From: Ignavibacteriota bacterium
GTDB taxonomy: Bacteria > Bacteroidota > Ignavibacteria > UBA10030 > SZUA-254
Length of the DNA stretch: 53,375 nt
Assembly: GCA_025358305.1 (NCBI GenBank)
Contig: JANYJZ010000017.1
Coordinates: forward strand, 1-53,375
Direction: 5' to 3'
Made by a program: the position numbers and the translations under genes. This document shows, in pieces, positions 40,465 through 44,298 of the stretch (position 1 is its first letter; each line of letters starts with the position of its first letter). A model generated the notes under the pieces. It worked only from the letters and a program-made list of their open reading frames with translations. It ran no database searches and was not told where the DNA came from.

Positions 40465-41622
40465 CTAGTATAAGAACATCGGTTTGCCCAGGAGGTGCGT
40501 GATCTTCGGGCGGTACTTCTCGATGTCGTAGAGCTCGTTCACGTCGACCCGTTTCTTGCCTTCGGTGATACTGCTCGCGGAGACCGTCGTATACTTGCCG
40601 TCCCGGAGCGCCACCATCCTTCCGCTCTGCTTCTTCAGGAGCAGGTCGGTCGCCAGATAGCCGTAGCTCGTCGAGACCATGAGGTCGAGCGCGTCCGGCG
40701 CACCGCTCCGCATGAGATACGCGAGCTGCTGGTAGACGGTGCGGATGCCGGAGCGTCGTTCGATCTCGCGGGCGACGAAATCGCCGACTCCTCCGAGCTT
40801 CTTGTGGCCGTACGCATCCTCTTCGCCGCTCAGGTGCATGTCGCCGCCGATCGGCTTGGCGCCTTCGGAGATCGTCATGATGGCGTACCCGCTCGGGTTG
40901 GACGCACGGTCCTCGACGAGGAACGAGACGAGCTTCTCCGTGTCGAAGTCCACCTCGGAGATGACCGCCCGGTCGACGCCTGCGAGGTACGCCGAGATGA
41001 GTGACGTCTCGCCGGAATAGCGCCCGAAGAGCTCCACGACAGCGATGCGCTCGTGGGACCCGGTGGGCGTGCGCAGCGCGTGGATGAATTCGACGCTCCG
41101 CGTGACGGCCGTGGAGAACCCGATGCAGTAATCGGTCCCGTAGACGTCATTGTCCATCGTCTTCGGTATGCAGACCATGGGAAAGTTCTCTTTGTGGAGC
41201 CGGACGGCATAACTCAGCGTGTCATCGCCGCCGATGGCGATGAGGGCGTTGACCTTGAGATGCTCGAGGACGCGCAAGACATGCTTTGTGCAGTCGACCG
41301 GCTTCTCCTTATCCGAGGTCTCGAACTCGGCCTGGAGGAACCCCGGGATCTCTTTCTGTTTGACGCGGCCTGGGTTCGTCCGCGAGGTATGGAGGTATGT
41401 GCCGCCGGTGCGGTCGATCGTGCGGGTGTTCACTCTCGTCAGGGGCACGACATGATCCGCCTGGGAGGAGGGGTCCTCCGGGTTGAAGTTCAGGAGCCCG
41501 CCCCATCCGCGGCGGAAGCCGATCACCTCATGGCCCTCCTCGCTTGCGCGATAGACGGCCGCTTTGATGCAGGGATTGAGTCCGGGGACGTCGCCGCCGC
41601 CGGTGAGTATTCCTATTTTCAT
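40465..41622 (-). CDS. 6-phosphofructokinase, predicted pyrophosphate-dependent
   Basis: A 385-residue group II-type phosphofructokinase that phosphorylates fructose 6-phosphate. The phosphoryl-donor site reads GGDDT (131-135) and PKTMDND (153-159). In ATP-dependent enzymes both discriminating positions are Gly (E. coli G104 and G124); here they are D134 and K154, the pair typical of PPi-dependent enzymes, which run reversibly in glycolysis and gluconeogenesis. The catalytic base Asp is D157. The N-terminal GGGDVPGLN and the GRYSG and ISEGA segments are normal. Own promoter; possibly co-transcribed with mutS. Confidence 0.93.
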
Positions 41623-41697: not shown

Positions 41698-41729
41698 TTT
41701 CGGGGACGGTTTGCGAAGAGACGCCAAGA

Positions 41730-41758
41730 TTGCATTTGGGCGAAAGTCTGCCTATTTT
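41730..41758 (+). promoter_or_regulatory. Putative promoter of the sigma/anti-sigma fusion gene
   Basis: TTGCAT (41730-41735) and TATTTT followed by TG (41753-41758) are 17 bases apart; the -10 fits the Bacteroidota TAnnTTTG exactly. The start would be near 41765, 42 bases before the ATG. I see no separate ECF-type element, but its own recognition sequence is unknown. Confidence 0.5.
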
Positions 41759-41806: not shown

Positions 41807-43291
41807 ATGGCGACAAACCCGCATAAAGCATCACGGCTCGCAGACCACCCGCGTCAGGCAGAGGAGGATTGCACATTTCTTCTCGGCGTCTCCGCCGGCC
41901 AGGAGGAGGCGCTTACGGAGCTCTACGACGCGTACGCTCCCATGCTCCTCGCCCTCGCCTTGAAAATGCTGCGCTCCGTCTCCGACGCGGAAGAGATCGT
42001 CCAGGAGCTCTTTCAGGACATATGGAGGAACGTCTTTTCCGCGATGGAAGGGACGGTGCATACCTGGATGGTGACGAGCACGCGCGACCGGGCGCTCTCG
42101 CGGCTCCGGGCTCGCGGCCAGCGGAGGCAGCCTCAGGCGTTCGATCCGCAAAGCGCTTGGGTCATTCCGGGACTCATCCCAGCCTCCGCCGATGGAATGG
42201 CCCGCGAGGAGATCGTCGCCGCCCTGAAAACGACCAGCCGTGAGGAGCAACAAGTGCTCGCCCTCGCCTACTATGAAGGATTCACCGAGACCGAGATCGC
42301 CGACGTCCTCAGCCGTCCCGTGGCCACGGTCCGGACCCAGCTGAACACGTCGATCATGGCCTTGCACCACGCGACGCCGTGGCATGGTACCACCGCGCCG
42401 TCCCACGAGGGATTCACTCCGGAGAGTTATGCGAGCCGCGCGCTCATGGTGCTTGACGGGGACGATGCCAGGCGGTTCGATGCACATCTCGCCTTGCCGT
42501 GCGAAGCCTGCCTCTCCTATCTGCGCGGAGTGAAGCAGACCGTCGCACTCCTCCCGATCGTCCTTGCCCCGGTCCCCCCCTCGCCCGACATCAAAGAGCG
42601 GATCCTGTTCTCGATACGGCTCTCCCGCGTCGCGGAGGCCGATCTCGGTATCCGCGACATGAGGCCCGATCCGCTTCCGTCGGCGGCCCCCCCCGATCTC
42701 CCGGAGTCGCCCTCCAAAGGCAAGCGCATCCCTTGGCTGATGATAGGCGGCATGTTTCTCGTCCTGTTCATACTCGTCGGTCTGGCTGCGTACGTCGACA
42801 CGCTCATCGACAAGGTCGGCGGCCAGTACGAGTTCATCCAGGGTCAGGCGCACGAGCTCTCTGCACTAAAGACCGAACTGAGCGGAACGAGAGAGATCCT
42901 CTCGGTATTGGATTCGCCCATGCTCGAGATCGTCCGGCTGAGCGGGTTGTCCCCCAGTCCGGAAAGCCACGGCAATCTCTTCTGGGATGCGGAGAGCAAG
43001 ATGGCGGTCCTCGAGGTGACAGAGCTGCCGTATGCGTCAGACGGGACCGAGTACCAGCTCTGGATCATCCTGAAGGACAAATCGATACTGCGGTCAACTT
43101 TGGCGGCCGTTGCGGGTCCCGATTCGGCGAAGATGTATCTCACGGCGGTCCGGCTGCCGGCGGAATTCCAGGACCATGTCGATGTTGTCGCGGTCGTACG
43201 CGTGAGGAAGGACGCTGGGGCTGAGGCGCCGGGAGAGATGTACCTCCAGGGGAGCGCCGGGCCCGGAGGCGCGGATCAGCGGACGAAGTAG
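41807..43291 (+). CDS. ECF sigma factor fused to a membrane anti-sigma factor (RskA type)
   Basis: One 494-residue frame holds both partners of a signalling pair. Residues 34-102 are ECF sigma region 2 (AEEIVQELFQDIW), residues 135-190 region 4 (REEQQVLALAYYEGFTETEI then a helix-turn-helix). After a 15-residue linker comes an anti-sigma domain (204-270) with H227, C232 and C235 in the ZAS zinc position (one residue more than the usual HxxxCxxC). A Pro-rich linker and one transmembrane helix (309-330) follow, then a coiled coil (335-365) and an RskA-type outer domain (370-485; LFWDAESKMAVLEV, EYQLWIILKD). Normally these are two proteins. The sigma part must be freed by proteolysis or act while tethered. 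Start at ATG 41807; no internal start with a ribosome-binding site is seen at the junction. Confidence 0.9.
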   Translation: MATNPHKASRLADHPRQAEEDCTFLLGVSAGQEEALTELYDAYAPMLLALALKMLRSVSDAEEIVQELFQDIWRNVFSAMEGTVHTWMVTSTRDRALSRLRARGQRRQPQAFDPQSAWVIPGLIPASADGMAREEIVAALKTTSREEQQVLALAYYEGFTETEIADVLSRPVATVRTQLNTSIMALHHATPWHGTTAPSHEGFTPESYASRALMVLDGDDARRFDAHLALPCEACLSYLRGVKQTVALLPIVLAPVPPSPDIKERILFSIRLSRVAEADLGIRDMRPDPLPSAAPPDLPESPSKGKRIPWLMIGGMFLVLFILVGLAAYVDTLIDKVGGQYEFIQGQAHELSALKTELSGTREILSVLDSPMLEIVRLSGLSPSPESHGNLFWDAESKMAVLEVTELPYASDGTEYQLWIILKDKSILRSTLAAVAGPDSAKMYLTAVRLPAEFQDHVDVVAVVRVRKDAGAEAPGEMYLQGSAGPGGADQRTK

Positions 43292-44175
43292 TTGATCATC
43301 TTGGAAGCGAGTTTCGCGGCTGTGAGGTCCGGATGGTGGAGTCCCTGTATCGGCGCGAATTCGACGATGTCGCAACCGACGACGGTCTTGCGCTTTCCGA
43401 GCTTCTGGAGAAGTCTCATCGTCTCATCCCAATAGAGGCCGCCGGGCTCCGGCGTCCCGGTCGCGGGCATGACCGACGGATCGAGGCCGTCGACGTCGAA
43501 ACTCACGTAGACGTGTTCCGTCAGCTGATCGATCGCATGGTCGTCCCACCCCTTTGATCCCCGAGTGTATGTGCCGTTCCGGAGTTCATGAGCGTAATGC
43601 GTATGGACGCCGTGCTTGCGGATGAACGCGGCTTCCTCGATGCACTGCGCGCGGATCCCGACCTGGACGAGCCTCCGAGGGTCGATGATCTCGCAGACGC
43701 GCGCCATGATCGAGGCGTGGCTGTACGGCGAGCCCTGATACTCGGCCCTCAGGTCGGAATGGGCGTCGATCTGAAGCACGGAAAGGTTCTTATAGACCGC
43801 GGCGTACGCCCCGATCGGGGCCTGAGAGATCGTATGCTCCCCGCCGAGTGTGAGAACGAACTTCTTCTTGCGAAGGAGAGCGGCGGTCGTCCGGCGTAGC
43901 GCCTCGAGGTACGCCCGGTCCTTCTTCGCGCCGGCGCTGAAGGGGGGAAGCGTGGCGATTCCCACCTCGCGGAAGACCTCGCGCCGGGTCTCTTCGTCGT
44001 AGAATTCGACGTAATGCGACGCCTTCAGGATCGCACCGGGACCCTTCTTGGTGCCCCCGCCGTAGCTTACGGTCCGTTCGTAGGGGACAGGCAGGATCAC
44101 GACACGCGAGGAATCGAAGCGGGAGAACCGTGATTCCGTCGCGAGAAAATTGGACCGGATGCCGAGCGTCTTCAT
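43276..44175 (-). CDS. speB: Agmatinase/arginase-family ureohydrolase
   Basis: A 299-residue ureohydrolase. The binuclear manganese ligands are all in place: H114 (GGEH), D137, H139 and D141 (DAHSD), D227 and D229 (SFDVDGLDP). The substrate loop GSPYSHAS with H153 is as in agmatinases, favouring agmatine to putrescine plus urea over arginine or guanidinobutyrate. The start is the ATG at 44175; the frame continues upstream across the promoter. It converges on the sigma-fusion gene, overlapping its 3' end by 16 bases. Confidence 0.92.
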   Translation of the reverse strand: MKTLGIRSNFLATESRFSRFDSSRVVILPVPYERTVSYGGGTKKGPGAILKASHYVEFYDEETRREVFREVGIATLPPFSAGAKKDRAYLEALRRTTAALLRKKKFVLTLGGEHTISQAPIGAYAAVYKNLSVLQIDAHSDLRAEYQGSPYSHASIMARVCEIIDPRRLVQVGIRAQCIEEAAFIRKHGVHTHYAHELRNGTYTRGSKGWDDHAIDQLTEHVYVSFDVDGLDPSVMPATGTPEPGGLYWDETMRLLQKLGKRKTVVGCDIVEFAPIQGLHHPDLTAAKLASKMINYFVR

Positions 44176-44219
44176 GGAGAGGCCGCAGTGAGATGGTGAT
44201 CGTTCAGAATTCTGAGTCG

Positions 44220-44248
44220 AATATAGCAGATTCCCCGCTGAAATACAA
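44220..44248 (-). promoter_or_regulatory. Putative promoter of speB
   Basis: On the minus strand TTGTAT (44248-44243) and TATATT (44225-44220) are 17 bases apart. The start would be near 44213, within a 10-base palindrome (44205-44214) that could be an operator. Confidence 0.55.
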
Positions 44249-44269
44249 CGGTCGCGCGTTCCACACTGG

Positions 44270-44298
44270 TTGCTTCTCACGGTTTTTTCACCTACCTT
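44270..44298 (+). promoter_or_regulatory. Putative promoter of the DUF2085 gene
   Basis: TTGCTT (44270-44275) and TACCTT (44293-44298) are 17 bases apart, followed by T-rich DNA. The ATG at 44312 is 13 bases further, so the leader would be only about 7 bases and without a Shine-Dalgarno site. Weak by E. coli rules; supported by the identical hexamers before dnaG. Confidence 0.4.

Follow-up and report, generated by a model that had tools for sequence, protein, structure and literature searches.

SigK and RskA of M. tuberculosis (ECF19-type) bring together sigma regions, a class I anti-sigma domain, one membrane helix and an RskA_C domain in the form of two separate proteins. RskA is described as independent of the zinc motif (PMC7406223, in which Hx3Cx2C is used as the class I anti-sigma zinc signature) and as able also to activate SigK, an effect that truncations of its C-terminal part produce (PMC7509140). 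Single chains holding both functions are known as well. According to PMC5411451 and PMC8999054, cuts made by Prc and RseP activate IutY of Pseudomonas putida (ECF243) and free its sigma domain, and for ECF52 (SCO4117), ECF48 and ECF53, in which sigma, a zinc-finger (likely anti-sigma) and one or two membrane helices are joined, proteolysis has been proposed (PMC8999054 and PMC5826349).

The gene described here lies in the window, that is, the whole 53,375-nucleotide stretch of DNA that was analysed, and its product has the same elements as SigK/RskA, with SigK as its best sequence match among solved structures and its best structural match (4nqw). It differs in being a single polypeptide and in carrying a zinc motif, H-x4-C-x2-C, of which RskA is described as independent. 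As in IutY, sigma and a membrane anti-sigma factor form one chain; however, IutY comes from Pseudomonas and the window fusion from the Ignavibacteria/Chlorobi branch, and IutY is described as having a periplasmic signalling domain that answers a siderophore receptor and the order sigma, membrane segment, periplasmic anti-sigma domain. The sequence of sigma, zinc-finger and membrane helix in one chain is also that of ECF52, ECF48 and ECF53, but these groups are actinobacterial and ECF52 is presented in the same sources with a proline-rich region and a carbohydrate-binding outer domain, and no RskA_C. In the literature searched, which covered few subscription journals and included the available parts of PMC7509140 and PMC7406223, we found no description of an RskA-type sigma/anti-sigma fusion. 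Sigma and anti-sigma in one polypeptide with a membrane helix is an already known kind of fusion (ECF243, ECF48/52/53), from which that of the window is set apart by its lineage and its outer domain. An earlier note on this DNA, made from the sequence alone, had stated that fusions exist in a few ECF groups of other phyla, for example ECF53; they do, and IutY extends them beyond the actinobacteria.

The gene reads as one intact open frame, for which the chance of a stop-free run this long is ∼2e-6 at a composition of 64% GC. We placed its start at ATG 41807, the first in-frame ATG 3′ of a promoter-like site; a longer ORF with a TTG start at 41711 would begin 5′ of that site. Regions 2 and 4 are both recognisable, as in ECF (group IV) sigma-70 factors: Pfam Sigma70_r2 (2.2e-10) and Sigma70_r4_2 (residues 134-179, 3.2e-7) matched over cut-off and the NCBIfam sigma70-ECF model gave 53.7 bits, above its cut-off of 42.9. 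A cytoplasmic helical domain, one membrane helix and an RskA_C outer domain make up the rest of the chain, as in RskA-type class I anti-sigma factors. RskA_C reached 28.6 bits with the window protein alone, just below the cut-off of 29.4, and 30.5 bits in the search of the window genome with its neighbours; it gave 30.5 bits in the fused protein of a second genus (genome G013), 77.6 and 67.0 bits in the split relatives G008 and G003 and 21.7 bits, below cut-off, in G004. The NCBIfam anti-sigma model NF052375 matched over residues 212-425 (8e-15, 55 bits, below its cut-off of 100). By the curated cut-off rule the window protein is related to the SigK-type subfamilies but is not a member of them (PRK09646, 90.8 of 226 bits; PRK12519, 101.6 of 222). 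Among the 15 region-2 matches of the window genome that of the fusion gene is the weakest, and its RskA_C match is the only one. The uninterrupted 494-codon frame and the domain order proposed in the earlier note were thus borne out, the two sigma profiles over cut-off and, with the protein alone, the RskA_C and anti-sigma profiles below it. Table 1 lists the features.

Table 1. Features of the sigma/anti-sigma fusion locus (window coordinates).
Feature	Position	Strand	Basis or remark
Divergent conserved neighbour, presumably pfkA	40465..41622	-	same protein beside locus in relatives
Promoter-like site TTGCATTT-N5-AAANWCT-N3-TANNTT	41730..41758	+	at orthologous site in 9 of 15 family genomes
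Sigma/anti-sigma fusion gene	41807..43291	+	494 codons plus stop
Sigma region 2, residues 39-104	41921..42118	+	Pfam PF04542
Sigma region 4, residues 134-186	42206..42364	+	Pfam PF08281 / PF04545
-35-recognition helix PVATVRTQLNTSIMALH, residues 171-187, diverged vs orthologues	42317..42367	+	score 12.8
Fusion junction ACC ACC GCG	42389..42397	+	codon comparison and protein alignment vs G008
Class I anti-sigma domain, residues about 205-280, H227-x4-C232-x2-C235	42419..42646	+	NCBIfam NF052375, invariant H/C/C, model helices
Single predicted membrane helix, residues about 310-331	42734..42799	+	hydrophobic run in sequence; model helix 310-368
Coiled-coil-like helix extension past membrane, to residue 368	42800..42910	+	model
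RskA-type outer beta-sandwich domain, residues 373-483	42923..43255	+	Pfam RskA_C 347-429; model strands 373-483
Convergent conserved neighbour, presumably speB-like	43276..44280	-	same protein beside locus in relatives

We compared the locus in a family sample of 15 genomes, in nine of which both sigma and anti-sigma were readable there. Three carried the fusion, namely the window genome (G000) and two genomes of one other genus, G007 and G013. Five had a single in-frame stop between the two parts (TAA in G008, G006 and G003, TAG in G010, TGA in G004), and in G001 the two ORFs were split by an ATGA overlap. G012 yielded only fragments at contig ends, with pfkA beside the sigma fragment, and in G002, G005, G009 (61% complete), G011 and G014 the search, at its chosen thresholds, brought up no pair of this kind. 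The gene or pair lies in a conserved order between a divergent gene that we take to be pfkA, of the 6-phosphofructokinase family, and a convergent one that is presumably a speB-like gene of the agmatinase/arginase family. The first adjoins the locus in 8 of the 9 readable genomes (G003 has mutS instead), and the second was seen in the examined stretch in 8 of 9, lying farther downstream in G010 and being absent from that of G008. The search for homologues of the same order thus recovered fused relatives at the orthologous locus. The earlier note had held that homologues always split at residue about 195 would betray an assembly artefact; six of the nine are split there and three are fused.

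Beyond the family, the matches listed for 98 order genomes, with up to 15 candidates scored in each, included no further stop-free full-length fusion, and G000 and G007 were the only fused ones among the matches in a phylum sample of 395 genomes (at most 3 candidates per genome, E up to 1e-40). A contig scan with the single window protein as query found no relatives, and an alignment-based search of the contigs gave 351 candidates, of which 79 loci were kept. Both domains occurred in one ORF only in G000, G007 and G013 among 164 loci examined. The in-frame one-stop layout is one that recurs outside the family, as far as the sequences go: full-length sigma/anti-sigma matches were broken by a single TAA in four other genomes of the phylum (G146, G151, G171 and G217). 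In all eight loci L090-L097, from MAGs named Dadabacteria, Thermodesulfobacteriota/-iales or Deltaproteobacteria, the anti-sigma ATG comes directly after the sigma stop and in frame with it, so that readthrough of one stop would give a fusion; other Deltaproteobacteria loci, such as L145, have a different layout. At two further loci (L023 in G014 and L041 in G010) a different sigma gene precedes an ORF of another kind, whose match to the anti-sigma profile is weak (E about 1e-12).

Where only one stop divides a pair that is otherwise in a common frame, a single change would, judged by the codons, produce a fused frame. At the junction, G008 reads CAG GAG AAG ATG TAA ACG ATG, with stop, one codon and start at its end, and the window reads CCG TGG CAT GGT ACC ACC GCG in a gapless alignment. 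Three features of G008, namely the stop, the start codon after it and the GGAG stretch, have been replaced in the window and there is no indel, so a single sequencing error cannot explain the fusion. G007 and G013 have one extra codon and neither stop nor start at this place. From these comparisons we concluded that the reality of the gene fusion is well supported.

Marker genes were used to ask how often it arose. In the MutS tree the fused G007 and G013 grouped with the split G001 and G004 (100/99), apart from G000, and in the MutS+PurA tree with G001, G004 and G009 (100/99). PurA alone placed them beside G009 and not with G001 and G004, so that this grouping rests on MutS and the concatenate. 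A single origin of the three fusions was rejected by MutS+PurA (AU p 0.0009), and likewise by MutS (p 0.033) and by PurA (p 0.014) taken singly. The sigma/anti-sigma concatenate, with its long branches, did not clearly reject a single origin (p 0.077), the values by part being 0.27 for sigma, 0.10 for the sigma2 part and 0.047 for the anti-sigma part; the pair's own sequences are weak in this respect and do not contradict two origins. The fusion probably arose twice independently within the family, in keeping with the separate origin that the earlier note had suggested.

All three zinc ligands, H227, C232 and C235, are present in the window protein and invariant across the 14 rows of a wider alignment. 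The protein has H-x4-C-x2-C and not the Hx3Cx2C signature, and so the extra residue between His and the first Cys pointed out previously is real. The same spacing occurs in 5 split orthologues and in 8 more distant split pairs, and it is therefore an ancestral trait of this anti-sigma family, unrelated to the fusion; we rejected it as a novelty of the fused protein.

A promoter-like site precedes the gene. The exact pattern with fixed spacing was found at the orthologous site in 9 of the 15 genomes (G000, G001, G004, G006, G007, G008, G010, G012 and G013), with one extra site in G001, and G003 lacks it; it is common to split and fused genes. Without the spacer element the pattern has 12 sites in the window genome against 0 for the reversed control, and at 7 of the 11 other sites the start codon of a frame of at least 400 codons follows within 63 bases downstream. 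We take the site to resemble the -33/-7 housekeeping type of Bacteroidota, and from its distribution it looks like a general promoter type. The spacer AAA[G/C][T/A]CT, which 9 family genomes share at the orthologous position with unchanged spacing, has its only other strict match among the 15 genomes in G001, and might be an operator or a hitherto undescribed promoter element. Autoregulation of the gene through its own promoter was considered and is not supported, the site being general in the window genome and kept where the recognition helix of the sigma part has changed, observations that are not decisive.

To examine the arrangement of the chain we used AlphaFold models of moderate confidence (window protein, pLDDT 72.1, pTM 0.51; G013 fusion, 71.2 and 0.49). 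The window model, with helices at 205-280 and 310-368 and strands at 373-483, has low confidence in the linker between the anti-sigma domain and the membrane helix. Its best match was 4nqw_A, SigK with RskA, on which regions 2 and 4 superposed together over 146 of 148 residues (Z 14.0, 1.9 Å), and the same structure was the best match of the G013 model (148 of 148 residues, Z 13.4, 2.4 Å). Sigma factors in other states fitted less well: the RNA polymerase-bound sigmaE 6jbq_F gave an rmsd of 27.5 Å (window) and 28.1 Å (G013), sigmaE bound to RseA (1or7) 13.7 Å in both, and 6in7 14.3 Å (window). Because other anti-sigma-bound sigmas superpose poorly as a whole, the match is to the SigK/RskA arrangement and not to inhibited sigmas generally, a prediction that may be influenced by a learned 4nqw. 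In both fused chains regions 2 and 4 are thus predicted to take the relative positions that they have in M. tuberculosis SigK when RskA holds it, and we infer from the models that the chain's own anti-sigma domain would sit between them. The proposal that the factor is anchored by its own inhibitor is supported by this whole-chain prediction. The modelled outer domain (42923-43255) can be superposed on several beta-sandwiches, among them Cu,Zn superoxide dismutase (6flh, Z 10.1, 105 residues, 3.0 Å, 10% identity), a likeness of fold only.

Taken together, we consider it fairly probable that the gene encodes a self-inhibited, membrane-tethered sigma factor of SigK/RskA type, made one polypeptide by stop loss and needing proteolysis to act. 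The comparison of split and fused loci shows that the ECF sigma and the membrane anti-sigma factor became one chain through loss of the in-frame stop between them, and the models suggest that the anti-sigma domain may fold back on regions 2 and 4 in cis, holding sigma off at the membrane. The fusion would fix the sigma:anti-sigma ratio at 1:1 and exclude free sigma unless the chain is cut. By analogy with IutY and RskA, an envelope signal on the RskA outer domain might lead to cleavage of the outer part and then to a cut in the membrane helix by a site-2 protease, after which transcription would be acted on by the cytoplasmic stub, or by sigma once the anti-sigma domain had been trimmed off. 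Release by proteolysis is suggested by that analogy; because the anti-sigma domain would stay attached after intramembrane cleavage, further trimming or an RskA-like activating stub would be needed, and since C-terminal truncations of RskA can activate SigK, a sigma/anti-sigma stub could be active once released from the membrane. The window genome has 3 matches to the site-2 protease family (PF02163), which is also matched in all 14 control genomes, so that their presence is non-specific. The domain order, the open frame, the orthologous locus with pfkA and speB, the one-stop split orthologues, the SigK/RskA-type match of both fused models, the IutY precedent and the selection found in the G007/G013 genus favour this reading. 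The departure of the recognition helix from the canonical orthologues and the moderate confidence of the models weigh against it, and the IutY mechanism carries over incompletely to a chain whose anti-sigma domain is cytoplasmic.

The divergence of the sigma part, on which the earlier note is silent, opens another reading. Sigma regions were scored against complete reference ECFs, with fragments dropped and the references scored leave-one-out. For the recognition helix (119 references, mean 37.4, sd 12.2), the canonical split orthologues G008, G006, G010 and G003 scored 37-47, and G007 (-7.4), G013 (-8.6), G004 (-1.8) and G001 (-10.3) fell below all references. The sigma may accordingly have been retired from promoter recognition and become a tethered mimic that occupies its own anti-sigma domain, or binds RNA polymerase, in cis; a signal would then alter how far the anti-sigma domain is free to bind another ECF, and fusion would be tolerated since sigma need not leave. 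We regard this as possible though unlikely. It agrees with region 2.3/2.4 of G007/G013, below all 115 references, with an ordinary region 4.1 in G000, G004, G007 and G013, and with the low scores of the split G004 and G001, from which the helix change probably predates fusion in the G001/G004/G007/G013 clade. Against it, the fused proteins score low in region 2.1/2.2 as well, part of which binds the polymerase (10 of 121 references lower for G000, 7 of 121 for G007/G013), so the divergence extends beyond promoter contacts; region 4.1 is low in G001 too (2 of 121), and altered contact residues may mean a new promoter specificity. For the window protein itself the case is weak: 5 of 119 references score lower in the recognition helix and 39 of 115 in region 2.3/2.4, which is ordinary (G001 is low there, with 6 lower). 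As the helices of seven other sigmas of the window genome score from 10.0 to 34.5, including 10.0, 13.2 and 14.6, the G000 helix is unusual for its orthologous group and not for ECFs generally. A precedent for a sigma-like domain working through an anti-sigma factor exists in PhyR. The sigma-like domain of PhyR has lost DNA recognition. PhyR shares with this reading an ECF-like domain acting on an anti-sigma factor, but there is no receiver domain among the Pfam matches of the window protein, and PF22233 (PhyR sigma-like) gave only E 0.1.

These sigma parts are nonetheless constrained. Between G007 and G013, dN/dS came to 0.02 for the sigma2-sigma4 linker, 0.10 for sigma2 and 0.15 for the anti-sigma domain; farther along the chain it was 0.23 for the outer domain, 0.33 for the helix before it and 0.49 for the linker/membrane part. 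MutS gave 0.06, and sigma4, with saturated synonymous sites, had a pN/pS of 0.14. The fused product is therefore maintained in this genus, and its sigma part is, by these ratios, under strong purifying selection, as a domain retained for a role other than promoter recognition would also be. The best conserved part of the two G007 and G013 loci (L015/L016) is the sigma2-sigma4 linker, residues about 101-128, with 96% identity. The unexpected combination of divergent promoter contacts and maintained selection is thus seen mainly in G007/G013 and in the split G001/G004, and a promoter-blind sigma is best supported in this group and weakly for the window. That an ECF sigma has here been becoming the cytoplasmic half of a membrane receptor, having lost promoter recognition while still split, then been fused at least twice, and now signalling via the anti-sigma domain or polymerase binding and not as a releasable promoter-specific sigma, strikes us as rather doubtful.

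Two working proteins might still be made, if translation also started inside the gene near ATG 42356 or if the chain were constitutively cut at the junction. That ATG is in frame, further start-like codons lie inside the anti-sigma domain, and between G007 and G013 the junction has a pN of 0.21, above the 0.08-0.11 of sigma2, sigma4 and the anti-sigma domain. However, the ancestral start codon is lost, no purine-rich ribosome-binding-like sequence was seen before the internal start-like codons, and internal initiation would yield free anti-sigma and never free sigma, which makes this explanation improbable.

A decaying, non-functional pair that had lost its stop codon would account for several diverged sigma regions and for the long branches of the sigma+anti-sigma tree (1.85 for G000 and 1.65 for the G007/G013 stem, versus 0.16-0.41 in G008, G003, G010 and G006). 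When terminal or stem branches of the sigma part are divided by those of MutS+PurA, a rough measure because the topologies differ, G008, G010, G006 and G003 have ratios of 1.2-2.9, whereas G000 reaches about 5, G001 and G004 about 9 and the stem of G007/G013 about 19. Decay is nevertheless quite improbable in view of the sigma2 dN/dS between G007 and G013 given above, 494 open codons with folded domains predicted, the conserved promoter-like site and locus and the retained zinc ligands. Finally, a sequencing or assembly error at the stop codon, to which the single genome of the window's genus might lend itself, is scarcely credible and was rejected, as three junction elements changed without an indel and an independent fusion lies at the same locus in two genomes of another genus.

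The self-inhibited, membrane-tethered sigma factor that we favour belongs to a natural series at one conserved locus, which runs from a pair split out of frame, through pairs separated by one in-frame stop, to fused genes with two probable independent fusions. This series offers a means of learning whether a sigma factor has to be able to part from its inhibitor and what activates one that is tethered. Within one clade the promoter contacts of sigma have strongly diverged, probably before fusion, while sigma is constrained in the fused genus, which may be one way for a transcription factor to become a signalling domain.
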